A program made the translations under genes and the position numbers. Below, piece after piece: positions 1-16,495 of a stretch of DNA of 64,000 nt. The stretch is taken from positions 1 to 64,000 of the forward strand of contig CANQJC010000008.1 of the NCBI GenBank assembly GCA_947624165.1. The letters run 5' to 3'. Within the stretch, counting starts at the first letter, position 1, and every line of letters starts with the position of its first letter. Source of the stretch: an uncultured Clostridia bacterium. GTDB lineage: Bacteria > Bacillota > Clostridia > UBA1381. The notes under the pieces are model-generated. The model had not been told where the DNA came from, searched no databases, and saw only the letters and a program-made list of their open reading frames with translations.

Positions 1-30
1 GTCAAGATTTATAAGACGCCGACTGAATAA
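1..30 (+). CDS. possible 3' end of a further secreted-protein cassette (partial)
   Basis: The first 30 bases read VKIYKTPTE followed by a TAA stop, in a frame open from the window edge. The jelly-roll-like domains of the neighbouring proteins end in DN plus a short strand (DNVKIYDD occurs inside the 1982-aa protein, DNFLTKYVKAAPAE ends cassette B). This tail is followed about 30 bases later by the same palindromic terminator that follows cassette B. The likeliest reading is the C-terminus of another cassette-type protein facing cassette A. Only nine residues are visible, so this is a weak call resting on position and similarity of the tail. Confidence 0.35.
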   Translation, partial: VKIYKTPTE

Positions 31-60
31 TTCCACAACAGAGAAAATTGTATAACAATA

Positions 61-95
61 AAAAAAGGAACGGCAATTGCCGTTCCTTTTTTTAT
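61..95. terminator. bidirectional intrinsic terminator, perfect palindrome
   Basis: GGAACGGCAATTGCCGTTCC (67-86) is a perfect palindrome flanked by six or more A on the left and T on the right, so it can terminate from both sides. It sits between the tail at 1-30 and the 3' end of cassette A. The same palindrome recurs at 6123-6142 between cassette B and the 1982-aa gene. Confidence 0.85.
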
Positions 96-116
96 TACTG
101 TTTTGCGTTTCGATTA

Positions 117-2834
117 TTACTCAACCCAGCCTGCCTGAGCCTTGAAGTTATCGAACGAGATATAGCTTGTATCTGAACCTGTCAAACCTCCGGCACCCAT
201 GTCATGGAAGAAGATCACAGACTTAAGATCTCTCTTAAGTGCCTTCTTGTCCGTCAGGTCAAACGTCGCCGAGCCAAGCTCATCGCCGCCGTCTTTTGTC
301 TTGATGGTTACGTCGATCTTCGTATTGGTGAACGTAACTTCAGCCGTGTACCATGTATCCGCCGCAGGTACTACGTCAGCTTCGGTCTTCTGAACCTGAG
401 CAGGTGTAAGACCCGAAGTCATTACAAATGCGTTGGAACCCCATGCATCCTTATTGCTGTAAACACCGTCCTCACCACGGTAGCTAACCTTATCAATATT
501 CAAGTTAGCAGGTTCGGTAGCATAAATCTGGAGCATATGGTCTACCGCAGTTTGACCCTGCGGCTTCTCACGGCTCCAACGGAGTGCGAAGAGAGTATCG
601 TTTTCGCTGTTGGCAAACGAAATTTCCTCGGTGTAAGTTCTCTTATCGTCACCCATGGGATATGTGTTGTTCATCTTGAAATCAAACGACATCTTGGTCG
701 ACTGTGATTTTTCGAGAGAAACGGGCGTATCAATACTGTAAACGCTCTTTGAACGATTCAGCTTGTCGGCAGGGGTAGATTTACCGGGGGTAAACTTAAG
801 TGCCATATCGGCTGCCGAACCAACCTCCTCGGCATTTATCGTAACCTGTCTGTTCGTTGATCCCCATGTACCCTTAAGAGTACCTTCGTCTGTGCTGTCA
901 AACGCTTTATTCTGCTCGGCTATCTTAAACGGATGATATTCCGTCGAATCGTCGGTCGCCTGCGTCGTTACATGGTTGAAGTCAGCCGTGAAATACTGAC
1001 CCTCCCACGAATCGGTAACTGCCGAAACAGTTACATTCTTGGCGGGCATCGTGAAGGAATTGTCGCTGTTCTCAACGGGTCCTTCATCTGCGTCTTGAAC
1101 CGTAAGAGATGTGATCTGCTTGTTCGCCTTCGCGTAAACATTGATCTTATCGCCAACGTGAACCTTTGAAAGCTCCGTTGTAACCGTTCCGTTTACCGCG
1201 ATTTCAATGTCGTCGGAAGAGCTGTTTTCAATTGTCAGATCCTTAGCCTTGAATACAACGTAAACCGTTATATTGCCGGTTATGCTTGTCATGTCAAGCT
1301 CATAATCGGGATCCTGCTTGGTGATATCCTGCTTGGTTTCCGAATCACTGTCAAGCGCGTACTTGACCGTATCCACTTCATAACCGTCGTTCGGAGTAAC
1401 CTTTACAACGAGCGTCTTAGACTGACCGATCTCGGTAATATTCGTGCCGCCGTTCTTTTCGTCAAGCTGTACGGAACCGCCTTCAGCGGGCGTAACGTCC
1501 GTCGATACCTGATAAACAGGCTCCTGAGAAAGCTTAACTGCAAGCTCGCCGTCCTTAGTCGTTTCGGGAACCTCTACCTTTTCCTGAACCTTCGCGTATA
1601 TCTTTACCGTCTTGGCTCCGCTGAGCGTCGAAGGAACGGACAGCGTAGCCTGAAGCTCGTTATCCTCGTTCTGCGCAAGAGTAGCGTCGGTCTCTGAAAC
1701 CGTACCCGATCCGTCATCGGCTTTAAGCTCCCATGTAACCGTTATATTATCGTCATTTGTGAACTCATAACCCGCAACGTCCTTAACGGTTGCCGTATAA
1801 GTGTACGTTGCAGCCGCGTCTTCACCCATCGCAACGGTAGTGGGACCTGTCACGGTTACCGAATCGATATCGTTTCTCGCATATTCTACCGTAACGGCAA
1901 TCGATTCTTCATTACCGGTGGTCGTGTACTTATAAGTACCCGAATCCCCGGGTTCAACGCCTGTTTCTTCGCCGTTTACCTTGACAGCAGTCACCTTCTG
2001 ACCGTTCTTCTTGGTAGGTGTGATAGTTATTTCCTGTCCTGTCGTAGCCTTATCTTCTGTTGTATTTACAAATGCCGGTGATACCGTAGCGTCCGTCGCG
2101 TTTACTGCGATGGGAACGTTGAAGGTATCGTCGTTCATATAAATGTTATCTATATTGACAGTTGCGCTGTTCGTGTCGCTTGCAACAAAGATACCCGAAA
2201 CACCCGTCAATGTCGCGTCTCTCCAGCCGACAGGTGCCGATGTGGTATAGAGCGGCGTAGCGGTCGCATAGTTATTGTTTGCCTTGTAGTCGTATACCTT
2301 AAGTGAAACCTCCTTATTGGATGCGTTTACAACTGCTTCGATATGATACCACTTGGCAGCGAGATCCGTTCCCGCAACAGCAGTAGCCGTTGCATCCTCC
2401 GTGCTTGTGTATACGTTAAGCGTCGCGCCGGTATCTCTGCCGACAGATATAATTCTTCCGCCGGGATTATTATTTCTGTGATCTGTTGCAACAATAGGAG
2501 TATTACCCGCGATCGCGACCCACGTTTTATCATTCTGGAGGTTGATATCAAACGAAACGTCTATAGCTTCGCCCGTCATCGTATAAGACTCTGTGAACGG
2601 TATGAACTTAGCACCCGCAGGATGATTGTTTGCGGCAACAAGTCTTTCGAACTTCGTTTTGTTTCCGTTCGCGTTGCTCGCCGTGCTCGGTGTAAATCTA
2701 CTGAAGTCAACAAAGTTAGTCGTAGCGTCTTCCTCATCATATGTGATAGTGCCGACTTTACCCTTCGGATAGTCGACCGAAGCTTCTGCAACTTCACCTG
2801 TTTCTGCCGTAACTGAGCCGAGAGGGGCGCGCAA
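117..2834 (-). CDS. cassette A: long secreted-type multi-domain coding cassette without its own start region
   Basis: This is an open frame of about 905 codons with no signal peptide and no ribosome binding site. It can be extended upstream only through the antisense of the toxin promoter, so I end it at a TTG in the inverted repeat (the mirror of cassette B). It begins RAPLGSVTAETGEVA, the same peptide that begins cassette B, and shares GSVTAETG with residue 1144 of the 1982-aa protein. Downstream I see a first jelly-roll/LamG-like region ending in NIDNIYMN, Ig-like strands, beta repeats with the tail FTMPAKNVTVSAV (bacterial-repeat type), and a second jelly-roll ending in SFDNF near the C-terminus. 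No catalytic motif is recognised. As it stands it is probably silent: either a storage cassette for recombination into the expressed gene, or a 5'-truncated pseudogene. The coding frame is intact throughout, which favours the former. Confidence 0.7.
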   Translation of the reverse strand: MRAPLGSVTAETGEVAEASVDYPKGKVGTITYDEEDATTNFVDFSRFTPSTASNANGNKTKFERLVAANNHPAGAKFIPFTESYTMTGEAIDVSFDINLQNDKTWVAIAGNTPIVATDHRNNNPGGRIISVGRDTGATLNVYTSTEDATATAVAGTDLAAKWYHIEAVVNASNKEVSLKVYDYKANNNYATATPLYTTSAPVGWRDATLTGVSGIFVASDTNSATVNIDNIYMNDDTFNVPIAVNATDATVSPAFVNTTEDKATTGQEITITPTKKNGQKVTAVKVNGEETGVEPGDSGTYKYTTTGNEESIAVTVEYARNDIDSVTVTGPTTVAMGEDAAATYTYTATVKDVAGYEFTNDDNITVTWELKADDGSGTVSETDATLAQNEDNELQATLSVPSTLSGAKTVKIYAKVQEKVEVPETTKDGELAVKLSQEPVYQVSTDVTPAEGGSVQLDEKNGGTNITEIGQSKTLVVKVTPNDGYEVDTVKYALDSDSETKQDITKQDPDYELDMTSITGNITVYVVFKAKDLTIENSSSDDIEIAVNGTVTTELSKVHVGDKINVYAKANKQITSLTVQDADEGPVENSDNSFTMPAKNVTVSAVTDSWEGQYFTADFNHVTTQATDDSTEYHPFKIAEQNKAFDSTDEGTLKGTWGSTNRQVTINAEEVGSAADMALKFTPGKSTPADKLNRSKSVYSIDTPVSLEKSQSTKMSFDFKMNNTYPMGDDKRTYTEEISFANSENDTLFALRWSREKPQGQTAVDHMLQIYATEPANLNIDKVSYRGEDGVYSNKDAWGSNAFVMTSGLTPAQVQKTEADVVPAADTWYTAEVTFTNTKIDVTIKTKDGGDELGSATFDLTDKKALKRDLKSVIFFHDMGAGGLTGSDTSYISFDNFKAQAGWVE

Positions 2835-2855
2835 AAAATACCGCGCCCCCTTGAC
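2787..2855. repeat. left arm of 69-bp inverted repeat flanking a toxin-antitoxin pair
   Basis: Bases 2787-2855 are the reverse complement of 3429-3497 with one mismatch in 69 (A at 2796). The outer third is coding sequence of cassette A (GSVTAETGEVA). The inner part holds a small hairpin (GGGGCGCG / CGCGCCCC around an A-rich loop) and ends in TTGAC, which is also the start of the toxin promoter -35 box. Confidence 0.95.
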
Positions 2856-2880
2856 ACAAGCGAGTGGTGAATGATATAAT
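2851..2880 (+). promoter_or_regulatory. SigA-type promoter of the toxin-antitoxin pair
   Basis: The -35 box TTGACA (2851-2856) and the -10 box TATAAT (2875-2880) are both perfect consensus with an 18-base spacer. The -35 box overlaps the inner end of the left inverted-repeat arm, but the -10 lies in unique DNA, so only this side of the element carries the promoter. Confidence 0.85.
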
Positions 2881-2904
2881 AAAAGCAGTAAGGGAGTAGA
2901 TAAT

Positions 2905-3138
2905 ATGCTGCAAATTACATATACTAAGGATGCGCGCAAGTTTCTTAAGCGTCAGCCGCGCGACGTCGCGAACCGTATTTTGGACGCGATAGAAAATCTG
3001 CCGTTCGGCGACGTGAAGAAACTGAAAAATTCGGACTTGTACCGTCTGCGCGTCGGAAAATACAGAGTAATATTCGACCGACGCGGCGTTGTTATCAATG
3101 TTATCGAGATCGACAGCCGCGGTCAGATTTATAAGTAG
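2905..3138 (+). CDS. RelE/ParE-family toxin-like protein
   Basis: A 77-aa basic protein. The residues LQITYTKDARKFLKRQP, LYRLRVGKYRVIF and the closing IEIDSRGQIYK are typical of the RelE/ParE superfamily (YoeB/RelE type mRNA interferases or ParE gyrase poisons). Conserved arginines and tyrosines of the RelE fold are present, but I cannot tell mRNA cleavage from gyrase inhibition. It has a good ribosome binding site (AAGGGAG, 8 bases before ATG) and a consensus promoter. The partner gene starts 12 bases downstream, so the order is toxin first, as in higBA-like systems. The pair is enclosed by 69-bp inverted repeats that cut into two surface-protein cassettes, which suggests it belongs to the rearranging unit. 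Confidence 0.85.
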   Translation: MLQITYTKDARKFLKRQPRDVANRILDAIENLPFGDVKKLKNSDLYRLRVGKYRVIFDRRGVVINVIEIDSRGQIYK

Positions 3139-3150
3139 GGAGTGATTTAT

Positions 3151-3390
3151 ATGTCGGAGATAAAGGAACGCATTGTCGGCGCGTTGTCGATTATGAGCGA
3201 CAAGGACGCGGAATCCGTTTGGGCGTTCATACGCGACGGGTACGTGATAAAGACAAAAACATGGGCTGACGTTGAGGACGACGAAGCGGACGCGGAGGAG
3301 CTTGAATTGATAAAAAATTACAATTCCAATCCCGAAAATTACGCTCCCGCCGTATCTCATGAAGATTTGCGTAAGGAAATAAACTCCTGA
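3151..3390 (+). CDS. putative antitoxin paired with the RelE-like toxin
   Basis: A 79-aa acidic protein (clusters VEDDEADAEELE) downstream of the toxin. I chose the ATG at 3151, 8 bases after GGGAG, over an in-frame GTG at 3142. The N-terminal half (SEIKERIVGALSIMSDKDAE) is predicted helical and could be the dimer or DNA-binding part. The acidic C-terminal half ending HEDLRKEI would wrap the basic toxin. I do not recognise a named antitoxin family; the call rests on size, charge, and the 12-base spacing from the toxin gene. Confidence 0.6.
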   Translation: MSEIKERIVGALSIMSDKDAESVWAFIRDGYVIKTKTWADVEDDEADAEELELIKNYNSNPENYAPAVSHEDLRKEINS

Positions 3391-3428
3391 CGCGCCGAAA
3401 ATAATGTACGCGAAGCATACCGCGTCCC

Positions 3429-3497
3429 GTCAAGGGGGCGCGGTATTTTTTGCGCGCCCCTCTCGGCTCAGTTACGGCAGAAACAGGCGAAGTTGCA
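3429..3497. repeat. right arm of 69-bp inverted repeat flanking a toxin-antitoxin pair
   Basis: Mirror of 2787-2855 (68 of 69 bases). The outer part encodes GSVTAETGEVA of cassette B on the plus strand. Within it, 3465-3487 is the 23-base core also present at 2797-2819 and at 8670-8692 inside the 1982-aa gene. Confidence 0.95.
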
Positions 3498-6092
3498 ACG
3501 AATGCGATAGGCGTAACGTCGGTTGAGAAGGCGACGGGTGCTCTGTATGACGGTCTTGTTGACACCGACTACAAGGTACAGCTCGGCGCGGACAACAAGA
3601 TAACGGTTACGGGTACGCTTATGTACCAGAGTGCTAACCCCTCGTTCCCCGCGAGAAACAACACGGGCTACTACGTACCGCTTAAGTTCAACGGCAACGG
3701 AACATATTATGTTGAAATAACCGAAGCCGTATACAACGCTGAACACGAAACCAATCCCAACTTGATAGAATATCCTGCCGAGTCGGGCAAGTACGCGAGA
3801 AAGGTTACCGTAGACGACGGTTTCTTGAACGTACAGACAAAGGTTAAGGCTAACTCGGACAGCGAAGGAGAAGGCTTCAAGCTTGAGGAAGGCTTCAAGG
3901 TATACTATGATAAGGACGGCGACGCGACAGTATACGCGCCCGTTACATACACTGTTGACGCAAGCGCGCTCAAGTTCCTTGTGAACAGAATTTCGAACGG
4001 TCCCGTATCCGTAAGCGGTACACCGACCCAAGAAGAAACCTACACCACTCCGGCGGTTACAACTCCGATAACGGCGTCTCAGTGCGCTATCGGCGGACGC
4101 TCGGTAGACAACAAAAACGATCCTCCGGCAATCGGTGCAGAGGGCGAGTTTGGATTGACCGGAAGTGCCACCGACGGTGCGCGTTCGGCTGCGGTATTCA
4201 CCGTTAATGCGGGTCTTGCGGCGAACAAGATCGCGAAAGCTACGCTTACCTTCAACTCCAAGTGTATAGAAAAGAATTCCGACTTGTGTCTGTTCAGAAT
4301 AACGGATTCAGGCTTCACGCAGGGCGGCGACCTTACGTCGATCAGCATACAATCACTCAACGGCAAGACCATCAAATATATTGCGAATATGGGTAACGCG
4401 ACCGACGCCGGCGCAACCATTACATATGATTTGACGTCGGATCTGAGAGCTGCGAACGGTCAGGCGACTTACATCATATTCACAAAGACAAATCGTCAGC
4501 AGACCATAACAAACATGAAGGTCGCTGTTGACGAGGCTGATCATGAGCTTAAGAACACCGTAAAGGCGACCGTTAAGAAGGTCGTTGACGGTGCGGAACC
4601 CGAAGAAGTAATCGAAACAAAAACTGAAGAAAATCTTTGGGAAGGCGACAAGTTCGTTGCGACATACGAGAAGGCATTTGACAAGGGCGATAGTGTTCCC
4701 GACAAGTACCACTATGTATACACGGGTGCTGCCGGCGACGACACGATCAACTCACTTTCGGCTACGGACGATGAGAACGTTATAACGCTCAAGTATTCAA
4801 AGACGCCGTATAAGACAGCGAAGTTCGTAGTTAAGGTTGGCGACGACGCCAAGGAGGGTATTCCCGTTGTAGTTTCCGGCGGCGCGCTCACAGCTGCGCA
4901 GACACTCACCTCGGCTGAAACAACAGGCGAAGCTACGATAGACCTTCTCCCCGGCAACTACTCATGGTCAGTTGCCAAAGACTACCAGAAGGGCTACGGC
5001 GGCGCGAGCGGAACATTTGAAATCAAGGCTACGGAGGATCCCGCTGACATCGCGGTCAACCTCGAAGAACACACACCGATATTCACATCTATAAAGATGG
5101 ATACATCGAAGCTCAACGGCCCGACCATCATCATAGGCGAAGCTCGTGAAATTGGTACGGTTTCGACTGTACAGCTCGATACCGACGGTGAAACACCGAT
5201 GCTTGAGACAAAGCCTGTAACATACTCAGTTGCGGTTTCTGACGGCGGTACCGCAGATAAGGTAACGGTAGACGGTACAGGTAAGGTATCTATAGAAGCA
5301 GATGCTACCGCAGGCACATACAAGATTACAGCTTCCTCGACGCAGGGCGGTGCGGATGGTTCAACAACTGTTACATCTAATGAAGCAGTTCTCACGCTCG
5401 CGGCAACGGGTGAAGAAAAGGTTGCGGCTGCTTCGGATGACTTCAGCGGCTCGACGAGCTTGTTCACCGCCTTGAATTCATCGGGCGCGGCAGTTGGATT
5501 TGGTAAGAACTATCCCGGTAACCCTGTATTCAAGTTCGGCGATGCGGGTAAATCAAACACAGCTCCCACAGATGTTGCAAACGCTGTATTTGAGACGCCG
5601 CTTGCTCCGCTTGCGGACGACCAGACAGTCGAGATATCCTACGACCATTACGCAGGTTATATAGACAACGTCAAGAGCGGTGCTAACAGAGAAAAAGTTA
5701 TCATCAAGGCACTCAATGCTACTGATGAGGAGTTATTCTCTTACACATACGAGTGCTTTAGCACTAACGTAAGCAGCGTTAAACTGTTCGGCACAGAGAA
5801 AGTTACCGAGGCATTTGCCGGAGGAATGGGCAAAGGTCAGAACGGCTGGGATTCGTTCTCAGCCACGCCTACGAAGGTTACGGTTACGCTGACCGGCGGC
5901 GCGACGCCGAAGCTTACGGTTAAATTTGCCGGAACGGCTAACAAGACCTTTGAAGAATCTGCGCCGGTAAGCATAACAGGCGACAAGAAGATTTCAAAGA
6001 TAGTTGTTATGGGTAATGTTGGTAACAGCGACCGTTCGGGCGGTATCGACAACTTCCTGACGAAGTATGTCAAGGCTGCTCCTGCGGAATAA
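3450..6092 (+). CDS. cassette B: long secreted-type multi-domain coding cassette without its own start region
   Basis: An open frame of about 880 codons starting at a TTG with no ribosome binding site and no signal peptide; true coding information appears to begin at GSVTAETGEVA. From about residue 225 to 460 it is clearly paralogous to the C-terminal part of the 1982-aa protein. Shared blocks include KATLTF, a NSD(L/I)..(F/V)R(I/V)T(D) segment, TSDLR, VKKVVDGAE, ENLWEGDKFV and NVITLKY. The first block resembles DNRLRE/CBM96-type carbohydrate-binding modules (tentative). The C-terminus is a jelly-roll-like domain ending GIDNFLTKYVKAAPAE. It is convergent with the 1982-aa gene, sharing a terminator. 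Inversion between 3465-3487 and 8670-8692 would fuse this cassette in frame to the secreted N-terminus of that gene. Otherwise it is a 5'-truncated silent paralogue. Confidence 0.7.
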   Translation: MRAPLGSVTAETGEVATNAIGVTSVEKATGALYDGLVDTDYKVQLGADNKITVTGTLMYQSANPSFPARNNTGYYVPLKFNGNGTYYVEITEAVYNAEHETNPNLIEYPAESGKYARKVTVDDGFLNVQTKVKANSDSEGEGFKLEEGFKVYYDKDGDATVYAPVTYTVDASALKFLVNRISNGPVSVSGTPTQEETYTTPAVTTPITASQCAIGGRSVDNKNDPPAIGAEGEFGLTGSATDGARSAAVFTVNAGLAANKIAKATLTFNSKCIEKNSDLCLFRITDSGFTQGGDLTSISIQSLNGKTIKYIANMGNATDAGATITYDLTSDLRAANGQATYIIFTKTNRQQTITNMKVAVDEADHELKNTVKATVKKVVDGAEPEEVIETKTEENLWEGDKFVATYEKAFDKGDSVPDKYHYVYTGAAGDDTINSLSATDDENVITLKYSKTPYKTAKFVVKVGDDAKEGIPVVVSGGALTAAQTLTSAETTGEATIDLLPGNYSWSVAKDYQKGYGGASGTFEIKATEDPADIAVNLEEHTPIFTSIKMDTSKLNGPTIIIGEAREIGTVSTVQLDTDGETPMLETKPVTYSVAVSDGGTADKVTVDGTGKVSIEADATAGTYKITASSTQGGADGSTTVTSNEAVLTLAATGEEKVAAASDDFSGSTSLFTALNSSGAAVGFGKNYPGNPVFKFGDAGKSNTAPTDVANAVFETPLAPLADDQTVEISYDHYAGYIDNVKSGANREKVIIKALNATDEELFSYTYECFSTNVSSVKLFGTEKVTEAFAGGMGKGQNGWDSFSATPTKVTVTLTGGATPKLTVKFAGTANKTFEESAPVSITGDKKISKIVVMGNVGNSDRSGGIDNFLTKYVKAAPAE

Positions 6093-6115
6093 TCGATATT
6101 ACATAACAAAAGAAC

Positions 6116-6148
6116 AAAAAAAGGAACGGCAATTGCCGTTCCTTTTTA
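6116..6148. terminator. bidirectional intrinsic terminator, same palindrome as at 61-95
   Basis: The palindrome GGAACGGCAATTGCCGTTCC (6123-6142) with A and T flanks lies between the convergent cassette B and the 1982-aa gene. It is identical in its 20-base core to the terminator after cassette A, so each cassette carries the same 3' end signal. Confidence 0.85.
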
Positions 6149-6172
6149 TTATACGATTTACCGTACCGCGAA

Positions 6173-9100
6173 TCACGCGCCGGCAGCTTCGCTCTGAATA
6201 GCGAGGTTGTCAACGTTGATCGTTGCGGCGGCGTCTACTCTGTTGCCGGAGAACGTAACCTTACCTACCGCAAGTCTGATATATTGAATATCAGTTACGC
6301 TTTCAGGTACGGCTACCTCGGAAACTGTCGCCGTGTCCTCCTGACCGACAGTGTTAACCTTAATTGTCATTTGGTTATTCTCAACAACAATATTTACATG
6401 ATACCACTCTGTGCCATCAGCCTTGTTGAACTTACCGTCGGATATAGCCGTTGCGCTGAGTGCCGAAACCGCATCGCTGCTGACAGCACCCTCCGCGATG
6501 TCACGGCAGGAGCCGTAAAATGTCGGGTTGTTACCCGCGAAAGGACAACCGCCCTTTGCATAGTACGAAAGGTCAAAATCACCGTTTTGTCTGTACATTC
6601 CCAAGGAGACAAGATTTCTGTAAACCGTGTCGTCATTCGAACCTACCGACGCAGAAGATACAAAGTTGATCTCCGCTCCCTGCGTGTCGCTGTCCGAAAG
6701 ACCCGATACAGACATATCGAAATCGATCGTTACCTTCTTGCTCGCAAGCTCTATCGGTGTTTCAAGGTTGTGGATCAGGTTTCTCAAGCCGTTATTGCCG
6801 TTCATGATAGCACTTATGTACTTGGTGTCAAATACCTCTGCATCCTGCTTCGGCGTTATGGTAAACTTCGAGTTTCCGTCCTGTCCCGTCTTACTGTCGC
6901 CATTCGACCAGTAAGCCTTGGGAGTATCCTCCGCGGTTACACCCGAGAAGTCCTCATAGTAATCGAAGTGCTCGCCCAGATCCTCATAAACGAGAACGAT
7001 ATCCGTGGTCTCGCCTTCTACCGTCGTGTCCTGCGCTCCGCTCTTATACTTGTATATATGCTTCTGAGCACTGTTATCGACGGAAATGATTTCCGGCAAG
7101 TAATCCTTTTTAAGAAGCTCATCTACGGTAATCTTGTCGTCAACGAATTTGCTTACGTCAAACGTAGCACCGTTCACCGTTTTACCTTCAATTACGCCGG
7201 TATTCTTATCCTGAGTTGTGTAATAGATATTTACGGTAGTTCTCTGCTTGTTATTAGGCTGAAGCACGATTTCGGGAACGGACAGATCAGCGGCTTCTAT
7301 ATCGAATGAACCGTTGGTCGCAAGATAATCGTCCGTAGCGTCTATCGCATACGTATAGCTTCCGGGGAGAAGCTTGATCGTAGCCTGACCCGTTTCCGCT
7401 TCCGTCGTGATAGTCTGCTGTTCGATAGGTTCGCCCTTTACTGTCGGAGTTCCGTTTATCTTGATCTGAACGCCGTCCTTAGGTGCTTCGCTAAGCTTTG
7501 TTGTAAGTGTAGCCGTATACTTCGGCGTCTTTGTATACTTCAACGTGATAACGTTATCCTCTGACGTCGCGCTCAATTCGTTTATTGTAGCGTTTTCGGG
7601 ATCAGCCGACGCAAACTGGAAGTAACCCGCGTCGGTTTCGATCGTCTGCTTTTCGCTGTAATCGTAAACGAACTTGTCGCCTTCCCACAGATTTTCGATT
7701 GTTTCCTCTGCTTCAACATTTTCTGTTTCAGCACCGTCAACGACCTTCTTAACCTTTACCGAAACATTATTCGCAAGATCTTCTTCCGCTTCATCTATTG
7801 TAACCCTTACGTCTGTTATCTTCTGTTCACGTCCTGTCGCACATGCCAGGAGGTATGTCGCCTTACCCTCAGCCGTTCTGAGATCGGACGTAACGTCCAA
7901 TGTGAACGTTTGAGCAGCGTTGGCGTTACTGTTGCCGGCCTTTACAACTGTCTTTGCAGTCTTGCCGTTAACATCGTCATATGTGGCGTTTGCCAAATCG
8001 TCGCCGCTTGTGAAGGATTCGTCCGTTACTCTGACAAGCCATATATCGGAATTCTTGTTAGCAACGGTACACTGAGCGGTGAAGGTGAGCGTCGCCTTCT
8101 TGATTTTGTTCTTTATGGAGGCTGCGTCTACCGTGAACGCAAGAAGATTCATATCATATTTTCCGTCGCCGACTGTGAGCGCGCCTTCCATATCAACTTT
8201 ATCCATGTTCTTATTGCCGAGCTGGATCTGGTTTGTCGTCAGCTGGGTAAGATCTGTTATTGCGGGGTTATCATACTTCGCGTCTTCTTTTGTTTCGCTG
8301 TGACCGTCTTTAACGGTGTACTTGAACGATACGGGACCGCTTGTGATTCTGTTCTTTTCAAGAACAACAGCCGTCGTCGCGCTCAAACCCTCGTAACCGT
8401 CAGCCGATACAGTAACCTTTATGAATTTGCCTACCTTATCGTTGGGGATTACATATGTCGCGCCGCTCGCGTCGCCTATCGGCGTGAATTCGCCTTCGGC
8501 TGAGTCGGCTGCCGACCAAGCGTATGTAACCTCTACCTCGTCTTCGCCTTCGGCAGCCTTTGCGTAGTTCGCCGTAAGCGTCTGTCCAACCTCGGGCGAG
8601 GTCTTTGTCGAATCGGTCTCATCTACCTTCAAAGTAAGCGTACCCTTGAGTTTCGGCTGTACAACAGCACCTGTTTCTGCCGTAACTGAGCCTTTGAAGT
8701 TAGCGTCAGCTGCGGGAGCGGTGATCTCAACGGTGTAGGTCTGGCCTATTTCGTTAGGTGTGAATGTAGCAGATGTTGCTTCAGTAATTATTTCCTTATC
8801 ATCGCCTGTACCCTTGTACCACTGGTATGATACGCCTGTGGGTATGTCGTCGGTTACTTCTGCAAGCTTTTCAAGCGAAGCTGTAAGTTCCTGATTAACG
8901 ATAGCCGTGTTCTGCTCTGAGAGCGCGCCTGTCTCATTCTCGATAACAGCCTTAAACTTAGAGCTGAGTTCAGCCTTTGTCTTAGCAGCCGTTACTTCGA
9001 ACGCATTTTCATTAACATCAGCCGAAACGATGATCGAAGATGTCTCCGAACCGCCTACCTTAATTGTAGGAGCGTCATAACCCTCCGATGCGGTAGCTAC

Positions 9101-12100
9101 TATCGTGTATGTACCCGCGGGAACATCAGTTACGGTAGCTTTACCTGCAGCAATCGTAGCATTATAATTCTGGTCGCCCTGGAGTGTAACAGTAGCTACG
9201 CCATCGCTTACGTTACCGACAATCGTGTATGTCGGAGCGGTCTGCTCTAAAGTCGTGATAGTAACCGTTACGTCCTCAGCGGGCATCGTGAACGACTTAG
9301 TTGATGTGATATCAGTCTCAGCCATAGTCGCACCCTGAACCTTAATGCTGTCTACTACTCTGCCGGGAGCAGATACTTCAACAGTAACTGTCTTTCCTGC
9401 AAACGACTTGTTGTCCGTGAGAGCGGTATCCTCTACCTTATATGTAGCGGTCGCGCTGCCGGCGGGATCTGCAACAGTCGTGATACTGTACTTCTGCGCC
9501 TCTTCGAACGTAGCATTTACAGTTACGTCGCCGGCGGGCATTACGAATGTATACTTGCCGTCTGTTCCGAGCGTCGCATTCTGAGCTTCACCCGAAGCAG
9601 TCTTATATGTTACAGTCTTAACAACCTTATCTGCGGGAGCTGCTACGGTAAGAGTTACCGTATCGCCCTTTGCAGCGGTCGTGGGTTCAACAGTGATCGA
9701 ACCGCCTGCCGAAGTAACGGCGGGGTCAACCGAAATATTATACTTAACAGCATCAAACTCAGCAGTAACGTTTACGTTCTCAGCAGGCATGGTGAATGTG
9801 AACGTACCGGGTGCGGAGCCGGCCTGTGTAGGAACTACAGTACCGTCCGTCTTCGTTACCTTGAGTGAACTGTCTTTATATGTATAGCCTTCGTCAGCCG
9901 TTACGGTAAGAGTTACCGTTGCGTCAGCCGCAGCCTTCGCAGGCGAAGCTGTAACGTGACCGCCCGTAAGGTTACCTATAACGATGTCATAATCAACATA
10001 CGAGCTGTTCGTAACGGTTACAGCGGAGCAATACGGGAGAAGCGTTTCAACGCCGCCCCATACCATGAGCTTGTCGCCGTTGGAAATCTTATCGTCAGCC
10101 GCCATATTAACCGTCTGAGGAGCATCAGCAGAGATACCGCCTACGGCGTATGTCTTAACGCTCGAAAGCTCATCATCCGTATACTTGGCATGAATAAGAG
10201 TAGCCGCAAATGCATCGGTCTCGTCTGTCTTTACAACAGCACTTGTACCGTCAGCGGACGACTCAACAGTTACCTTGTGCGCCGAAACAGTCGGAGCGGT
10301 ACCTTCAACAACGTTGGGGAGGATGTTCGAATCAATCGGGTCCTCCGTAGCGTAAGCTATGATGTTGTCCAAAAGGTCTGTCGAGTTTGCAGCACTCGAC
10401 GAAGCGCAGTTGTCAAGGATAAGCGCGGGAAGCTTAACGGGCAGATATGCACCCGAGGCTTCCGTCGAAACCTTTGAACGCTTTACCGGCGCAGAAAGCT
10501 CGCCGTCAACCTTATAACCTGTCTCGTCGGGGTCTACCCAAATTCTGTAATTGTCGCCGCTCGTGATAGCGAGAACAACGGTATGCCACTGATCGGGCTC
10601 TACCTGAATGAGGTTGTTGTCGCTTCCGTTAGCCGCGAAGCCTTCATTTTCCTCGTCAGCGGAGATACAAGCAAGGAACGTCTTGTAATAAGCCGGAGCC
10701 GTTTCGGAATTATCTACGAACGGAGCCGCGCCGAGAGACTGACCTGCGTACTCGCCCGCACCGTCGGGAGCGTTACCCTGCGAGTCAACTATCCAAAGTC
10801 TGGACTTACCCTTTACGGCATTCTTTGACAGATATACCGAGAACGCCATAACAGCCGTGCCGTCGCCGACCTCGATATCAGGGTCATAATAGAATCTCGG
10901 ACCTCTGCCTGCCGTCGCATAGCCGCCGCCGTTAAACTTAACAGCCTTCGTGCCGTTTGTAACGTCAACGATCGAAGCATAGGAGTTCGGGTCGCCGCCG
11001 TCTCTGTCGGCAATCGAAATATGAGCTTTTCCGCCGCTGAGATCATAAGGCTCAGTGGGGAGATATTCGGGATTTGTAGAGGTATTCGAGTTACCTATCT
11101 CAAAAATCTTACCTGTTGCTTCAGCTTCGAAGTCAACCTTTGTTACATCACCTTCGTCGATTCTCTCGGGAAGCGTGAAGTCGGGAGCCATACCCGCAAC
11201 GGTCTCGGGAGCCGGAGGAGGTGTAACAACAGCAGCCGCACCTCTCAAGCCGTCCGTGCTGAATGCAGGAAGACTCGTCGTGTCGTCATAAATCTTTACA
11301 TTGTCTATCAATATCGTCGGAGGACCCGGATTGTCTATCTTGCCCGGAACTACGAAGTTATTGTCGCTTCTGGGCATCGTAAGATAAAGACAATTTACGC
11401 CTTCCGCGTCAGCGGGGAATTCCTGTCCGTTAAGATACTGTGTCGACTTCGAAGAAGCCGTAACGGTAGCTTTACCATTGGAAACAACGGCACGAACTCT
11501 TACCCATTCAGCGGGCTGTGTCTGGAAGTCGCCCTGTTCCATCGACAGATCCTCAGTACCGTCGTCGTTTATGAGCCACTTATCGAAAAGCTCGATTCTC
11601 GACGTAACGGACAAGCCGATGTCGGAAACCAGACCTTCGCCTGTGTGCGAAGAAGTATTCCAGTTGTTCGCACTACCGTTTGCCAAATAAGGCAGATATG
11701 CATCTGTTACGGACTGAGCGTACTCGCCGCCGTAATCACGCGAATCTTTCAGCGAAGCATCATAAGGTTCGCCGATAAACGCAGCCTGGGTGTAACGTCC
11801 GAGACGTCCCTGACCTGTACCCGCCGTTATCGACGTATCAAACTCGATAGCGTACTCGCCGCCCATGTCTTCATAGTCGCCGTTAGCGAACGTATAAGAC
11901 GCATAACCGTCGTTCGAGCCGCCGATAAATTCGAGATACTGGTCGGACGAGCCTTCCTCGGTTTTAACCACAGGAACGGCGGAGCCTTCCCAGCCATCAA
12001 CGGTGGAGCCGTCAAGAGTTACGACCGGAGCCGCCGCGCTCGCGGTAATCGTCATGCCGGCAAATGCCGATGTGGTCATAGCCGCAGCGCAAAGTAATGA

Positions 12101-12121
12101 AATCAGTTTTTTAATTTTCAT
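6173..12121 (-). CDS. 1982-aa secreted multi-domain surface or carbohydrate-binding protein (expressed copy, cassette C at its C-terminus)
   Basis: The start is the ATG at 12121, 5 bases after GGGAGAGAG-type purines; it gives a clear signal peptide (KIKKLISLLCAAAM, hydrophobic core, TASA-A cleavage region). Residues about 35-330 and 350-640 look like two jelly-roll/LamG-like modules, the first ending DNVKIYDD. Residues about 660-1000 carry three or more bacterial-repeat units recognised by MPAENVNVTAEF, MPAGDVTVNATF and MPAEDVTVTI. Ig-like segments follow. GSVTAETG begins at residue 1144 and marks the recombination-like site. After it come a CBM96/DNRLRE-like block, beta-sandwich linkers and a final jelly-roll ending INVDNLAIQSEAAGA. 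No SLH, LPXTG or dockerin is seen, so its surface attachment is unknown. It has its own promoter and terminator. Function is inferred only as extracellular binding; no catalytic residues were recognised. Confidence 0.85.
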   Translation of the reverse strand: MKIKKLISLLCAAAMTTSAFAGMTITASAAAPVVTLDGSTVDGWEGSAVPVVKTEEGSSDQYLEFIGGSNDGYASYTFANGDYEDMGGEYAIEFDTSITAGTGQGRLGRYTQAAFIGEPYDASLKDSRDYGGEYAQSVTDAYLPYLANGSANNWNTSSHTGEGLVSDIGLSVTSRIELFDKWLINDDGTEDLSMEQGDFQTQPAEWVRVRAVVSNGKATVTASSKSTQYLNGQEFPADAEGVNCLYLTMPRSDNNFVVPGKIDNPGPPTILIDNVKIYDDTTSLPAFSTDGLRGAAAVVTPPPAPETVAGMAPDFTLPERIDEGDVTKVDFEAEATGKIFEIGNSNTSTNPEYLPTEPYDLSGGKAHISIADRDGGDPNSYASIVDVTNGTKAVKFNGGGYATAGRGPRFYYDPDIEVGDGTAVMAFSVYLSKNAVKGKSRLWIVDSQGNAPDGAGEYAGQSLGAAPFVDNSETAPAYYKTFLACISADEENEGFAANGSDNNLIQVEPDQWHTVVLAITSGDNYRIWVDPDETGYKVDGELSAPVKRSKVSTEASGAYLPVKLPALILDNCASSSAANSTDLLDNIIAYATEDPIDSNILPNVVEGTAPTVSAHKVTVESSADGTSAVVKTDETDAFAATLIHAKYTDDELSSVKTYAVGGISADAPQTVNMAADDKISNGDKLMVWGGVETLLPYCSAVTVTNSSYVDYDIVIGNLTGGHVTASPAKAAADATVTLTVTADEGYTYKDSSLKVTKTDGTVVPTQAGSAPGTFTFTMPAENVNVTAEFDAVKYNISVDPAVTSAGGSITVEPTTAAKGDTVTLTVAAPADKVVKTVTYKTASGEAQNATLGTDGKYTFVMPAGDVTVNATFEEAQKYSITTVADPAGSATATYKVEDTALTDNKSFAGKTVTVEVSAPGRVVDSIKVQGATMAETDITSTKSFTMPAEDVTVTITTLEQTAPTYTIVGNVSDGVATVTLQGDQNYNATIAAGKATVTDVPAGTYTIVATASEGYDAPTIKVGGSETSSIIVSADVNENAFEVTAAKTKAELSSKFKAVIENETGALSEQNTAIVNQELTASLEKLAEVTDDIPTGVSYQWYKGTGDDKEIITEATSATFTPNEIGQTYTVEITAPAADANFKGSVTAETGAVVQPKLKGTLTLKVDETDSTKTSPEVGQTLTANYAKAAEGEDEVEVTYAWSAADSAEGEFTPIGDASGATYVIPNDKVGKFIKVTVSADGYEGLSATTAVVLEKNRITSGPVSFKYTVKDGHSETKEDAKYDNPAITDLTQLTTNQIQLGNKNMDKVDMEGALTVGDGKYDMNLLAFTVDAASIKNKIKKATLTFTAQCTVANKNSDIWLVRVTDESFTSGDDLANATYDDVNGKTAKTVVKAGNSNANAAQTFTLDVTSDLRTAEGKATYLLACATGREQKITDVRVTIDEAEEDLANNVSVKVKKVVDGAETENVEAEETIENLWEGDKFVYDYSEKQTIETDAGYFQFASADPENATINELSATSEDNVITLKYTKTPKYTATLTTKLSEAPKDGVQIKINGTPTVKGEPIEQQTITTEAETGQATIKLLPGSYTYAIDATDDYLATNGSFDIEAADLSVPEIVLQPNNKQRTTVNIYYTTQDKNTGVIEGKTVNGATFDVSKFVDDKITVDELLKKDYLPEIISVDNSAQKHIYKYKSGAQDTTVEGETTDIVLVYEDLGEHFDYYEDFSGVTAEDTPKAYWSNGDSKTGQDGNSKFTITPKQDAEVFDTKYISAIMNGNNGLRNLIHNLETPIELASKKVTIDFDMSVSGLSDSDTQGAEINFVSSASVGSNDDTVYRNLVSLGMYRQNGDFDLSYYAKGGCPFAGNNPTFYGSCRDIAEGAVSSDAVSALSATAISDGKFNKADGTEWYHVNIVVENNQMTIKVNTVGQEDTATVSEVAVPESVTDIQYIRLAVGKVTFSGNRVDAAATINVDNLAIQSEAAGA
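8670..8692 (-). repeat. internal copy of the 23-bp cassette-boundary site
   Basis: This is a 23-base stretch inside the 1982-aa gene, identical to 2797-2819 (25 bases if 2795-2796 and 8668-8669 are included) and, inverted, to 3465-3487. In all three places it encodes GSVTAETG in the same frame, so strand exchange here would keep the reading frame. Confidence 0.85.
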
Positions 12122-12454: not shown

Positions 12455-15400
12455 TTAATCCAAATACTCTGCATAAATGTTATCAATGGCGAATTTTCCG
12501 TAACTCCAATCGCCTACGAAATACATTCTGTCGAGGTTCGCCGCAGTCAGAGCGGCGTCGCCCGTGGCAAGTACCTTGCCAGCGGCGTTCGTCAGCGTGT
12601 ATTTCATCGTCTTTGCGGTAAAGTCAAGCTCGGTGTCCACGGCAACAAGCATTGCGGTGTTGAAGCCGGAAACCGCTTTTCCGTTGAAGCTCGACGGCGT
12701 AGTCTTGTCGCCGGTTCTAAGAAGCATACTGAAGACGGGAACAGGATTTGTGCCCTCCACGCCGGCGTATGTATCGTCTATAAATTGAAGCGTGGTGGAG
12801 GCGTCTTTGCCGTCGTTTCTGGATTTATGTACTTCTATCTCGAAGCCGAATTTCATCTTCGTGTGCGTCTTGAAGCCGTCGAAGACCTTGTTGTAGGCAA
12901 GGTTGTTGCCTGCGGCGTTACCGCCGTTTCCAACAACGAGAGCCTTACCGTTGCCGACGCTGCGCATCGCGGGGAAGTCGTCAATACCTTCCTCGGGAAT
13001 TATCGTGCTCAGCGGCACGGCCGAGGTGTCTTCGAACCAGTCTGAGGCGGACGCAACAGCCGAGAAGTCCTCAAAGTAATCGCAGTCGTAGAGAACGACT
13101 GAGATACTCTTCTTTATGCCGTTCAGCTCAGCCGTAACGGTAACGGTCTTCTTCGGCTCCGAAGAAGCGTAGCCGTCGGGGATAGTGAGAACGCCGTCGG
13201 TAAGCGTCAGAGCGGCGTCGTCGCACGACCAGGCCGCGGACGCGTTGTTAACTTCGTCGACGGGGGTCTTGTACTGGTCTACCGCGTCGATGATACCGAG
13301 GTTTATCTGCGTGCCGGAAGCGACCTTCACGCGCGTCTTGTCGGCACTGAGCGAGAAGGACTTCACGTCGTCTACGGTCGGCTTTATAACAAAGCGCGCG
13401 ACGATGGACGTGTCCTGACGTATACGGAAGGAGTATTCCGCGTCTGGGGAAATGACCTTCGAGGTATTGCCCTCCTTGTACCAGCCCGTGAATACATAGC
13501 CTTCGTTCGCGGTCGCTTTGGCGGTTATAACCGTGTTGAGCTTTGCCGTCAGTGATTTCGGTTCGCCGTTGCCCGCGATGATCGCTTCGGTAAGGGGCTT
13601 CATGCCGGAAACGGAATCCCAGAGCATGAGCTTGTTGCCCGCTTTCGCGCTTATCTGCTTCGTACCGGCTTCTTCAAATACAACGGGCGTTGATTTGACC
13701 GATTTGAGCGTGCCGTCGGTATTGTAGGCGACTTCGAGAAGCGTCATTTCGGCGGGGTTGTCGGACGTTATCACGGCTTCGTTAAAGTTGAAGGCAAGCT
13801 TCACGCCGTCGCCGAACAGTACGGGTCCCAGACCCGTCAAGCCGCCGCTGCCCGCCGCTGCGGCGGTTATCGTGACCGTACCGCGCTCGTCGTTCGAGGA
13901 CGACGCTTTCGCGGTAAATTCGGGTAACTCCTCGGTCTTGAGCGCGGTCACGCTGAGGTTCGCGATTTGTATACCCACGGGAACCTTTGAGGAGTCGAAT
14001 AATATAGAAGTAATTTTTTCGGGTTTAACGACGGGGTCGGTCGTCGTATACAAGTCGCAGTCTACCGTCACGGGGTCATAACCCGCGAGGTGAAGCGTCG
14101 CGGTACCGAAATCCATGTCGAGGACAAAGCGTACCTTGGCGAATCTGAGGGACGAGATCTGTCCCACGTCCTTGCCGCCTACCTTCAGCATACCCTCGTC
14201 GCCCACGGCGAATACGGGTACAACGGTGTCCGTTCCCGTAACGTTTGACGCGGACGGGTTAGTGGCGAGTTCGACGTTCATGCCGCCGCCGTTTACATAT
14301 CTTATATCGAAGGAAACCTCGTATTTGCCCGACGTGCCTATCGGCTCGGAAAGGCTCTTTGAGAGGTAGAACGAGCCGTCGGTGCCGTCGGTTTTTTTAC
14401 CCGTCGTCACAACGTTGGCGTAATTCATGTTTATGGGGTTTTCGTCGTCGCCGCCCACAACGGTCGTACCGAGCGTCGTTGTCTTTGCCGCGCTTCCGAC
14501 GTGCTGCCAGCCGCTGCCTTCGGCATTTTCGACAAGCGTCGCGCCCTCGTCCTCGTATACCGCGCCTTCATATGTAAAGTCGTCGGAAAGGTACGAGGAC
14601 GTCGCGGGTATGTAATCGTATTCAGCCGACAGGCGTTCGCCGCCCTCCTCCTCGGGAAGGAGCGCGAGATCGCCGTCCGTCTCGGTCGCCGTCCAGGTAT
14701 ACGCCTTAAACGTCTCGCCGTCGGCGATTGCCGCCGTTTCGGGGAACGCCACGGTCTGGAAGCCCTTGCCGGTGGAGTTGTCAACGTTCTTCGCGGAGAT
14801 GTACGAGGCTTTCTTCTCGCCGTCCGCGCCGTACACGTCGACAACGCCCATGGCGTATGTGCTCATCGTACCGATAACGTTTACGGTCATGTCCTTGATT
14901 TTGCCGTCGGCGACCGTAACGCTTTCAACGTCGGTCGGGTATTTATATTCGGGTCCCGAAACGTACTGGGGCCACGCCGAGCCGCCGAGCGGAGTGGACG
15001 TTATGGATTCGGGAATAAGATTCGGCTTTTCTTCGGTAATATTGTCAAGGAAACCGTTGAGGACAGCCTTTTCCGCTTCGCTCGTCGTCTCCTCCACTCT
15101 CGCCTTAGCCGATTCTATAAACTCGTACGCGAGATTTTCCGCGCCCGCGTCGTTCGGGTGCGTCGTGTCCGTCGCGCCGCCCTGCGCCGTCTGGAAGTAG
15201 TATTTGATAGCGTTGGGATCGTCGCCGTTTTCTTTTACTATTTTATTGTAGAAATCGAGACTGCGCTGCGTGAGTTCGACGAACGCGATATTTTCCGCGC
15301 CGTCGTCGGCGATTTTATCCTCGACGTATTTCTTACCCGCCGCCGAATAGTCTGTATCGTCTGTCTCGCTTATCTTTACAAACGAGTGTTCGTACTGCTT

Positions 15401-16495
15401 GGAACCGCTGTCCCATTTATTTATTCTCTCGATCGGGCTTACGATGAGAAGCTTCGCGTTCTTGGTCTTGCAAAGATTGTAGTATTTTGCGAGATTGGAA
15501 ATGTAACCGGGGACTTTATCGTCCTTGTGGTTGTGACCGTACTCAACGTAGAGGTAGTCGCCCGCCTTTATTCTGTTCGCAACCATGTCGTAGTGGAGAC
15601 TGTCGGCGGCGTTCAGACCGCCCTCGCCCTCGTTCACCATGGCGATGTCGCGCGGGAGATATTTGGTAAGTCCCGTGCCGACGCCGGTGTAGTTCTGAAG
15701 TCTGAAGAACGGAAGCGAGCAGTTGCCGTCCGTAACGGTCGAGTCACCGAGTACCCAGAATACGGGGTACTCCGCTACCTCCTGAATGATTATCGAGGAG
15801 ATCGCCGAGTTTTTGCCGAGCGCGCAGACGTTTACCATTTCGTCCTTGATCGCACCCGTCGGAGTTGATTTCTGATAGTAAATAGGAGTCGGTCTTACGG
15901 AAAACTCAACCGTCTTCTTTTCGCCGGGTTCGAGCTTCACGTCGGTGTAGAGCGGGTGTTTTCTCTCCGTGTAAAGCGAGACCTCCGCTTCCTTACTCGT
16001 GTCAAGCGTCGTAACGGTGGCTTGTACGCGGTAATAGTGGTCGTCCTCGGCTTTCAGGGCGAAACGAACGGGATAGTAGAGGTCTCCGGCGTTGCCGTAG
16101 AGGTCCTCGCCCGACGAGCCGATACCGTCGTCAAGACCCGTACCGCCGCCCGCTTTAAGCGTGATGACTTTATCGTCGTCGTTTTCCATCTGTTTCTTCT
16201 GTGTGCCGAAACCGTCGTAACGGTCTCCGAGCAGATAGTCGGATTCCTTTGTGCCGAGGAATCCAAAATCTGCGTCGCCGCCCTTTTCATAATGCATGTC
16301 GGGGGTCACGGCCGTCCAGCCGTCCTCGGCAGCCGTACCCGCCGCGCCGAAGTCAAACTTCCATTCCTTTTTGACTTCATCGCCTGGGAAGATGGGCGTC
16401 GTTTCGGCGTTCGCGGTGGTCGCGGGTAAAACTATCGTACCCGACGCCATCGCGAGCGTTAGAGCCGCGCAAAGCAGCTTTTTAAATTTTTTCAT
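12455..16495 (-). CDS. secreted SGNH-family esterase, rhamnogalacturonan acetylesterase (CE12)-like, with jelly-roll modules
   Basis: A 1346-aa protein with a signal peptide (KKFKKLLCAALTLAMASG... ANA). Residues about 45-240 form a galactose-binding-like N-terminal domain. Residues 245-490 are an SGNH hydrolase: GDSTV with Ser252, GGLNAADS, GHNH at 320-323, and DTTHPND with Asp443/His446 complete the catalytic set. This pattern fits CE12 rhamnogalacturonan or pectin acetylesterases, which remove acetyl groups from pectin outside the cell. Further downstream are a jelly-roll near 640-860, a bacterial-repeat segment (FTGWYKEG...) and a C-terminal jelly-roll ending FAIDNIYAEYLD, similar to the ends of the neighbouring cassettes. 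It has its own promoter and terminator. The SGNH call is firm; exact substrate is inferred. Confidence 0.85.
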   Translation of the reverse strand: MKKFKKLLCAALTLAMASGTIVLPATTANAETTPIFPGDEVKKEWKFDFGAAGTAAEDGWTAVTPDMHYEKGGDADFGFLGTKESDYLLGDRYDGFGTQKKQMENDDDKVITLKAGGGTGLDDGIGSSGEDLYGNAGDLYYPVRFALKAEDDHYYRVQATVTTLDTSKEAEVSLYTERKHPLYTDVKLEPGEKKTVEFSVRPTPIYYQKSTPTGAIKDEMVNVCALGKNSAISSIIIQEVAEYPVFWVLGDSTVTDGNCSLPFFRLQNYTGVGTGLTKYLPRDIAMVNEGEGGLNAADSLHYDMVANRIKAGDYLYVEYGHNHKDDKVPGYISNLAKYYNLCKTKNAKLLIVSPIERINKWDSGSKQYEHSFVKISETDDTDYSAAGKKYVEDKIADDGAENIAFVELTQRSLDFYNKIVKENGDDPNAIKYYFQTAQGGATDTTHPNDAGAENLAYEFIESAKARVEETTSEAEKAVLNGFLDNITEEKPNLIPESITSTPLGGSAWPQYVSGPEYKYPTDVESVTVADGKIKDMTVNVIGTMSTYAMGVVDVYGADGEKKASYISAKNVDNSTGKGFQTVAFPETAAIADGETFKAYTWTATETDGDLALLPEEEGGERLSAEYDYIPATSSYLSDDFTYEGAVYEDEGATLVENAEGSGWQHVGSAAKTTTLGTTVVGGDDENPINMNYANVVTTGKKTDGTDGSFYLSKSLSEPIGTSGKYEVSFDIRYVNGGGMNVELATNPSASNVTGTDTVVPVFAVGDEGMLKVGGKDVGQISSLRFAKVRFVLDMDFGTATLHLAGYDPVTVDCDLYTTTDPVVKPEKITSILFDSSKVPVGIQIANLSVTALKTEELPEFTAKASSSNDERGTVTITAAAAGSGGLTGLGPVLFGDGVKLAFNFNEAVITSDNPAEMTLLEVAYNTDGTLKSVKSTPVVFEEAGTKQISAKAGNKLMLWDSVSGMKPLTEAIIAGNGEPKSLTAKLNTVITAKATANEGYVFTGWYKEGNTSKVISPDAEYSFRIRQDTSIVARFVIKPTVDDVKSFSLSADKTRVKVASGTQINLGIIDAVDQYKTPVDEVNNASAAWSCDDAALTLTDGVLTIPDGYASSEPKKTVTVTAELNGIKKSISVVLYDCDYFEDFSAVASASDWFEDTSAVPLSTIIPEEGIDDFPAMRSVGNGKALVVGNGGNAAGNNLAYNKVFDGFKTHTKMKFGFEIEVHKSRNDGKDASTTLQFIDDTYAGVEGTNPVPVFSMLLRTGDKTTPSSFNGKAVSGFNTAMLVAVDTELDFTAKTMKYTLTNAAGKVLATGDAALTAANLDRMYFVGDWSYGKFAIDNIYAEYLD

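Follow-up and report, generated by a model that had tools for sequence, protein, structure and literature searches.

The window analysed here, the whole 64,000-nt stretch of contig CANQJC010000008.1 from an uncultured Clostridia bacterium (genome total 1.76 Mb in 40 contigs, listed as 82% complete), carries near its left end a complete gene for a very large secreted protein, read on the minus strand from a possible start at 12121 (MKIKKLISLLCAAAMTTSAFA) to its end at 6173, and beside it two long open frames, cassettes A and B, which lack a start region and are open from a short site to their stop. An initial annotation of the window had described this gene and the two startless frames, a 23-base site common to them, one reading frame giving GSVTAETG at each copy and the same terminator downstream, and all of these were confirmed: the 23-mer GGCTCAGTTACGGCAGAAACAGG occurs as three exact matches (Table 1), the translations of the three open reading frames (ORFs) agree, and the two terminators share a 35-nt inverted match of 97% identity. 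At up to three mismatches the 23-mer gave three matches in the window, compared with a mean of 0.00 and a maximum of 0 in 100 shuffles. The annotation had also suggested looking outside the window for further site copies and a recombinase, and both were found on contig C17 of the same genome, namely a fourth exact copy (s1) and, 56 bp from it, an intact tyrosine recombinase gene; beyond the four exact copies the 23-mer is absent at up to three mismatches across the 1.76-Mb, 82% complete genome. C17 extends the window leftward, because its end, reverse-complemented, is identical to window positions 1–77. The two contigs separate precisely at the midpoint of a 40-nt palindrome (57–96), and not at a site.

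Along the joined locus, the recombinase gene is followed by s1 and cassette C reading rightward, a terminator, cassette A with site s2 reading leftward, a toxin–antitoxin segment, s3 and cassette B reading rightward, a second terminator, and finally cassette D, s4 and the N-terminal gene half reading leftward. Site orientations thus alternate along the array (+ − + −), a single reading frame runs through the site in all four cassettes, and no stop occurs in A, B, C or D in that frame. Silent cassettes A, B and C have CCCCTCTC in common immediately 5′ of the site, where the expressed copy differs, and the exact stretch common to all four consists of the 23-bp site plus four bases nearby and nothing else. 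A 69-nt inverted repeat of 99% identity holds the A and B sites and encloses the toxin–antitoxin-like pair.

We interpret this locus, at a probability of roughly 0.9, as a chromosomal shufflon with a constant N-terminal half and four C-termini exchangeable by inversion. The constant part of the gene would end at the 23-bp site, with D in use and A, B and C silent; the cassettes would form convergent pairs in two invertible segments, C/A and B/D, with the toxin–antitoxin segment between them; the C17 tyrosine recombinase would act on inverted sites, with the crossover inside a core of roughly 12 bp (CAGTTACGKCAG); the flip of a segment would fuse another cassette in frame to the N-terminus; and the variable C-termini would change the binding of a secreted, carbohydrate-binding-like protein. 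We infer that the C17 recombinase is the enzyme acting on the sites and that the window's own array is active. The shufflon reading had been put forward in the initial annotation and is now supported by the adjacent recombinase gene, by the fourth site with cassette C, by the same layout in sister species and by signs of alternative junctions in the assemblies of two relatives, G007 and G001. Its account of cassette swapping stands for B, whose site s3 is inverted relative to s4; the site of A is direct relative to s4, so that A is not brought to the gene by a single s2–s4 inversion and its route involves inversions at other sites. Enumeration gives 16 arrangements reachable by inversion, with each cassette at the gene in four of them.

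Table 1 Features of the array in the window and on contig C17 (L005)
Feature	Position	Strand	Basis
Constant N-terminal half, signal-peptide-like start, InlB B-type repeats	8693–12121	−	ORF, translation, PF18998
Cassette D, C-terminus now fused, 837 residues from VTAETG	6173–8669	−	ORF
Silent cassette B, without start region	3488–6092	+	ORF
Silent cassette A, without start region	117–2796	−	ORF
Silent cassette C, 1024-codon ORF	C17 48–3122	−	ORF
Tyrosine recombinase gene, intact, 386 aa	C17 3161–4321	−	PF00589
Site s4, within expressed gene	8670–8692	−	exact 23-mer
Site s3, start of cassette B, inverted to s4	3465–3487	+	exact 23-mer
Site s2, start of cassette A, direct to s4	2797–2819	−	exact 23-mer
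Site s1	C17 3082–3104	−	exact 23-mer
Left arm of 69-nt inverted repeat, contains s2	2787–2855		repeat search
Right arm of 69-nt inverted repeat, contains s3	3429–3497		repeat search
Palindromic terminator-like element between ends of cassettes C (C17) and A	57–96		
Terminator-like element between ends of cassettes B and D	6113–6147		
Exact overlap with end of contig C17	1–77		
Promoter-like site of toxin–antitoxin pair, TTGACA-18-TATAAT	2851–2880	+	12/12 consensus match only
ParE/RelE-like toxin gene, 77 aa	2905–3138	+	PF05016 E 1.6e-6, phrog_1213 E 1.1e-16
Candidate antitoxin gene, 79 aa	3151–3390	+	position
Terminator-like stem with T run, after antitoxin and before s3	3417–3446	+	

The recombinase and its relatives

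The recombinase matches Phage_integrase (PF00589, E 2.2e-23) and SAM-like core-binding domains, and its best PHROG is phrog_1, integrase. The residues that we take as catalytic from family motifs (R223, K260, H328, R331, H354 and Y364) are invariant in six homologues, and 22 residues follow the presumed catalytic tyrosine Y364 to the end of the protein, which leaves no room for a C-terminal domain of the Rci type. About 60 conserved residues at the N-terminus have no match in Pfam or the PDB; Pfam can miss an N-terminal arm-binding domain, according to the excerpts available of PMC8138268.

Relatives were sought in 15 other genomes of the genus, all genomes involved being draft assemblies. The recombinase was found at 85–87% identity in four of them (G001, G007, G011 and G015), at 65% in G002 and at no more than 57% in the remainder. 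The four are metagenome-assembled genomes of uncultured Clostridia labelled Lapin, with NODE contig names, which we take to denote rabbit and SPAdes assembly, respectively. In each of the four the core CAGTTACGTCAG starts 65 nt past the last sense codon of the recombinase and an open frame follows, the conserved stretch being 23 bp in the window compared with this 12-bp core across species. G001, G007 and G015 have a second core inside the N-terminal gene homologue or where that gene is broken off, and the second core of G011, close to a contig end, is translated within a similar protein context; in G015 the N-terminal gene, both sites and the recombinase are all on one contig. The initial annotation had considered that related strains might carry cassettes A and B with intact N-termini of their own; where relatives could be assessed the opposite was seen, an A-like cassette running in frame from the N-terminal gene across the site in G001.

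A tree of 32 recombinases (midpoint root only; eight rows unlabelled, rows below 350 aa dropped, L146 and L147 at 24–31% left out) was labelled by locus inspection and by ARAGORN tRNA predictions 3′ of the gene, with G000_C11 assigned to the tRNA type by eye, and G002 and G062, with a single site found in each, to the shufflon type from the open frame that follows the gene on its 3′ side. A tRNA lies 3′ of the recombinase gene in 16 of the 32 named loci. The eight shufflon-type recombinases form one side of a branch (support 100/97), and this clade, surrounded by tRNA-type enzymes, has as its neighbour (98/99) an integrase whose gene lies next to tRNA-Leu. Arm-type repeats, defined as CGTGTA-N5-CGTGTA with two letters free to vary, were found 3′ of the gene at 14/14 tRNA-type and 7/8 shufflon-type loci, and a second pair within 300 nt upstream at 7/8 shufflon-type compared with 0/14 tRNA-type loci; L118 has neither pair under the pattern used. 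Tree and repeats fit the domestication of a mobile-element integrase, with the root placed by midpoint only. The window's own genome also encodes a 56% paralogue of ordinary mobile-element type (L039, C11:819–1964), by eye beside a tRNA-Ala-like gene, and a scan of the viral_contigs set with the recombinase returned 28 loci with a best identity of 58%.

Membership of the integrase family, relatives beside tRNA genes and the retained arm-type repeats are also what would be seen if the recombinase were a mobile-element integrase lying at the locus by chance, the repeats remnants of attachment sites and the cassettes unswitched copies. Each of the four sites, however, falls at the same codon of a cassette, and the shufflon-type recombinases are a separate clade in which site and open cassette are kept across species. 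An open cassette, not a tRNA, lies 3′ of the gene, and no phage or conjugation family was found among the eight other ORFs tested within C17 1–20 kb at E 1e-4: two match rhamnogalacturonan lyases (SLH domains being present in one of them), single ORFs match an impB/mucB/samB-type polymerase, an FMN reductase and a glutamine amidotransferase that carries a phosphoribosyltransferase domain, and the other three have no match at that threshold. On position, clade and neighbours, a mobile-element role for the recombinase was set aside, and we consider this explanation of the locus very improbable.

Cassettes and the secreted protein

The silent cassettes contain zero stops in the frame read, compared with 38–81 in the other forward frames. 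Differences at first, second and third codon positions were 0.46/0.40/0.66 for A against its G001 counterpart, 0.40/0.37/0.59 for C against G011 and 0.45/0.39/0.66 for B against D, the third position being highest in each case, with saturated synonymous divergence (dS 1.8–3.0) in the cassette comparisons; the substitution pattern of silent A and B is apparently of the coding type. Cassette A matches the cassette attached to the N-terminal gene of G001 (38% over 543 aa), for C the match is the recombinase-side cassette of G011 (39% over 844 aa), and B is related to D (36% over 518 aa), while homologues of the N-terminal half occur in 12 of the 15 other genomes at E ≤ 1e-10.

The cassettes have a mosaic structure: the identity of D and G011_y is 61% in the first 113 aa, after which the two diverge, and other pairs share parts. 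Such mosaicism is expected if cassettes were swapped by homologous recombination or gene conversion without a site-specific recombinase, and gene conversion may indeed add to it over longer times. As the sole mechanism, however, it is extremely unlikely, given that the stretch exact in all four cassettes is very short for homologous recombination and that a recombinase gene adjoins a site.

None of A, B and C matches a Pfam family above cut-off, and in the whole gene PF18998, in the N-terminal half, was the only Pfam family found. The last domain of D, modelled from eight sequences (mean predicted local distance difference test score 60, predicted template modelling score (pTM) 0.68), has among its 50 best PDB matches mostly lectins, calreticulin and alginate lyases at template modelling scores of 0.4–0.5, and is predicted with modest confidence to be a concanavalin-like jelly roll. 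The N-terminal model (pTM 0.51) matched CBM22, sialidase, laminin G, lectin-like and neurotoxin binding domains in the PDB, which indicate a beta-sandwich only, and no function was drawn from them. From fold and the pectin-related-looking neighbours, the product is probably a variable carbohydrate-binding secreted protein. The neighbouring gene (12455–16495, minus strand) encodes a protein of 1346 aa that looks secreted, with a last domain alignable to that of the cassettes and a start that, judged by eye, we take to resemble an SGNH hydrolase; a 31-nt stretch at 13056–13086 within it is 90% alike to 6939–6969.

Contig ends and possible alternative junctions

In G007, the first and last base of contig C26 (8140 bp) both fall at core base 1, and from its two ends run convergent open frames, 899 and 1096 codons long, with their first 30 nt in common; the recombinase-side contig stops exactly at the 30th shared base, and the N-gene contig overlaps one C26 end by exactly 77 nt. 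In G001, the N-gene contig stops inside the site at CAGTTACGTCAGA, and the two known cassettes differ at the next base; a second contig overlaps the N-gene contig by 77 nt and then continues in frame, and the recombinase-side contig stops 77 nt after the first base of the core. The 12-mer core is found nowhere else in either genome. Taking the assembly k-mer length as 77 from the overlap lengths, the shared stretches in both genomes are far below 77 nt and repeats alone should therefore not break the graph; reads for alternative joins should, so the cuts in G007 and G001 fit coexisting arrangements. A short-read assembler's misjoining of repeated sequence, for which draft genomes and contigs meeting at 77-nt overlaps might be cited, is hardly credible given this shortness, the cuts at bases where alternative junctions would diverge, and the unbroken assembly of the whole locus in G015, on a single contig, and of three sites in the window.

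Counted across 15 type-1 core copies in G000, G001, G007, G011 and G015, eight are no more than 100 bp away from the end of a contig, compared with 0.09 expected from rounded contig figures on an assumption of independence that the copies do not satisfy. The count excludes the six copies of G061 as well as G005:C37 (one mismatch), G015:C12:20766 and G015:C30:3912 (12-mer matches), which were taken as chance because no recombinase of the clade is listed beside them. The more distant G061 (recombinase 62%) has six exact copies of a different core, CAGTTGAATCAACCGAAAC, four of them, by their coordinates, no further than 100 bp from where a contig ends. In this genome one cassette start (67 nt from the core) is preceded by two different prefixes that have only 10 nt before the core in common, and a contig breaks off 77 nt from the first base common to the two prefixes. 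This is weaker evidence for alternative junctions, as one of the two prefixes itself occurs more than once and the cassette start may be duplicated.

Three further cases were not used. The joining of G061 prefix Y to two cassettes was dropped, as its last 64 nt occur twice (C23 and the end of C43) and this repeat with the site exceeds 77 nt and therefore proves nothing. The G011 contig end lies 64 nt, not 77, from the last shared base and no second contig was found for it. In G010, whose array has another repeat (below), the two ends of the array contig share 77 nt, so that a true repeat could explain the cut. The far end of C43 in G061 is cut inside the site without explanation, and at L158 (G061:C23:49–6407) two site copies in direct orientation flank ORFs that by eye resemble purine-synthesis genes (157–2797), so that deletion between them would cost those genes.

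Several observations weigh against a shufflon at this locus. The 77-nt overlap is the whole basis of the junction between C17 and the window. None of the four sites in the window's own genome lies near a contig end and a single arrangement was assembled, so there is no sign of a second one; the same count in G015 is 0/2. G002 and G062 (recombinase 65% and 61%) yield one site copy each with the pattern used. Finally, the same contig cuts would be expected if strains were mixed in the sample, each with its arrangement fixed, and the data therefore support recombined junctions, not a switching rate.

A different repeat, the 26-nt pattern ACGACTTATACCTTCNNNATGCCCGC, is common to four other genomes of the genus, G004, G005, G008 and G010 (loci L174, L186, L187, L188, L189, L190, L198 and L199). 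It sits in large secreted-protein genes of the same family, with several copies near contig ends; in G005, G008 and G010 it lies inside a large gene starting MKSKKLISFLCAAAMTV. An inverted partner stands beside an open frame in G008 and G010, and in G004, G005 and G010 an outer copy is close to a lyase-like gene, and the interval holds no recombinase. An enzyme acting on the repeat was not found; the repeat possibly marks another shufflon.

The toxin–antitoxin segment and known systems

The segment between s2 and s3 encodes a ParE/RelE-like toxin and a candidate antitoxin, possibly a type II (ParDE/RelBE) pair, the antitoxin candidate without a match in Pfam, NCBIfam or PHROGs, and has a terminator-like stem before s3 (fold z-score −3.0 for 3391–3490). 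Among the 16 genus genomes, toxin homologues of at least 84% occur only here, in G007 (91%), inside its invertible segment, and in G010 (84%), inside another cassette array; an ORF like the candidate antitoxin adjoins the homologues of G007 and G010, and the next best match is 57%. Three homologues at 53–54% lie up to about 1 kb upstream of tRNA-type integrases (G001:C79, G008:C2 and G002:C12), and the pair may therefore have come with the integrase. Toxin and tRNA-type integrase at these three loci could be a standard pairing in such mobile elements.

In the enumeration the segment stays central, and recombination at either direct-site pair, s1–s3 or s2–s4, would delete it in every arrangement; in Rci arrays, according to excerpts of PMC11852207, modules keep parity. 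A mobile-element integrase and its toxin–antitoxin pair might both have been domesticated into a host shufflon, the pair serving as a guard that kills cassette-losing cells, an idea that we hold to be speculative and on balance unlikely. A guard role is at odds with G007, whose only two sites are inverted and so allow no direct-site deletion; the toxin matches listed for G001, G011 and G015 include none on an array contig, and a site asymmetry like that of Rci could prevent deletion anyway.

The closest parallel is the R64/IncI shufflon (pilV, Rci), which likewise has a constant N-terminal half, opposed partial C-terminal ORFs in invertible segments, sites between the cassettes and the recombinase gene at the far end (excerpts of PMC5430464 and PMC11852207). 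It differs in residing on a plasmid rather than a chromosome, in varying a pilus tip rather than a giant secreted protein, and in that the array described here has a toxin–antitoxin pair inside it. Rci has an extra C-terminal domain, as given in the excerpts of PMC11852207, which the present recombinase apparently lacks, with its 22 residues after Y364, and the Rci site is an asymmetric 31 bp (12-7-12) supporting inversion only, compared with the conserved 23 bp in the window and 12 bp across species. The Bifidobacterium prophage Rin shufflon also combines a gut host, a tyrosine recombinase, constant N-terminal and variable C-terminal regions and short sites, but acts on a phage receptor-binding protein in prophages and is described without an arm-type domain in the excerpts of PMC6109161, whereas the present system retains some 60 N-terminal residues together with paired arm-type repeats. 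In Bacteroides fragilis, Tsr0667 similarly shuffles surface protein genes (SusC/SusD) of a gut bacterium by multiple inversions (excerpts of PMC11852207); alternative alleles use different promoters there, whereas here C-terminal cassettes would be swapped within one gene. Integrases of the arm-binding IntTn916 type, a subgroup in the excerpts of PMC8138268, belong to the same family and have arm-type repeats 3′ of the gene, but the recombinase here has no tRNA target and no mobile genes were seen beside it; the second, upstream repeat pair again separates shufflon-type (7/8) from tRNA-type (0/14) loci.

Shufflons retrieved by full-text search, to the extent that the sources were excerpted, lie on plasmids, in prophages and in Bacteroides, and inversion signatures are given for 15 Firmicutes samples, 14 of them Clostridia, in PMC5903667. 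A chromosomal Clostridia shufflon is not described in the excerpts of PMC6109161 and PMC5903667 reached by that search, outside which most subscription papers and bioRxiv preprints fall, and an earlier report of one is possible.

The locus would extend multi-inversion of the R64 style to the chromosome of an uncultured gut Clostridia bacterium, where it would diversify one very large secreted protein. With a shufflon clade placed among tRNA-adjacent integrases, the idea that an invertase arose from an integrase becomes testable, and a toxin–antitoxin pair inside the array suggests a means by which a host could protect such an array against self-deletion. The signature of contigs ending at the core or one k-mer away from it may reveal arrays of this kind in short-read assemblies without the reads.

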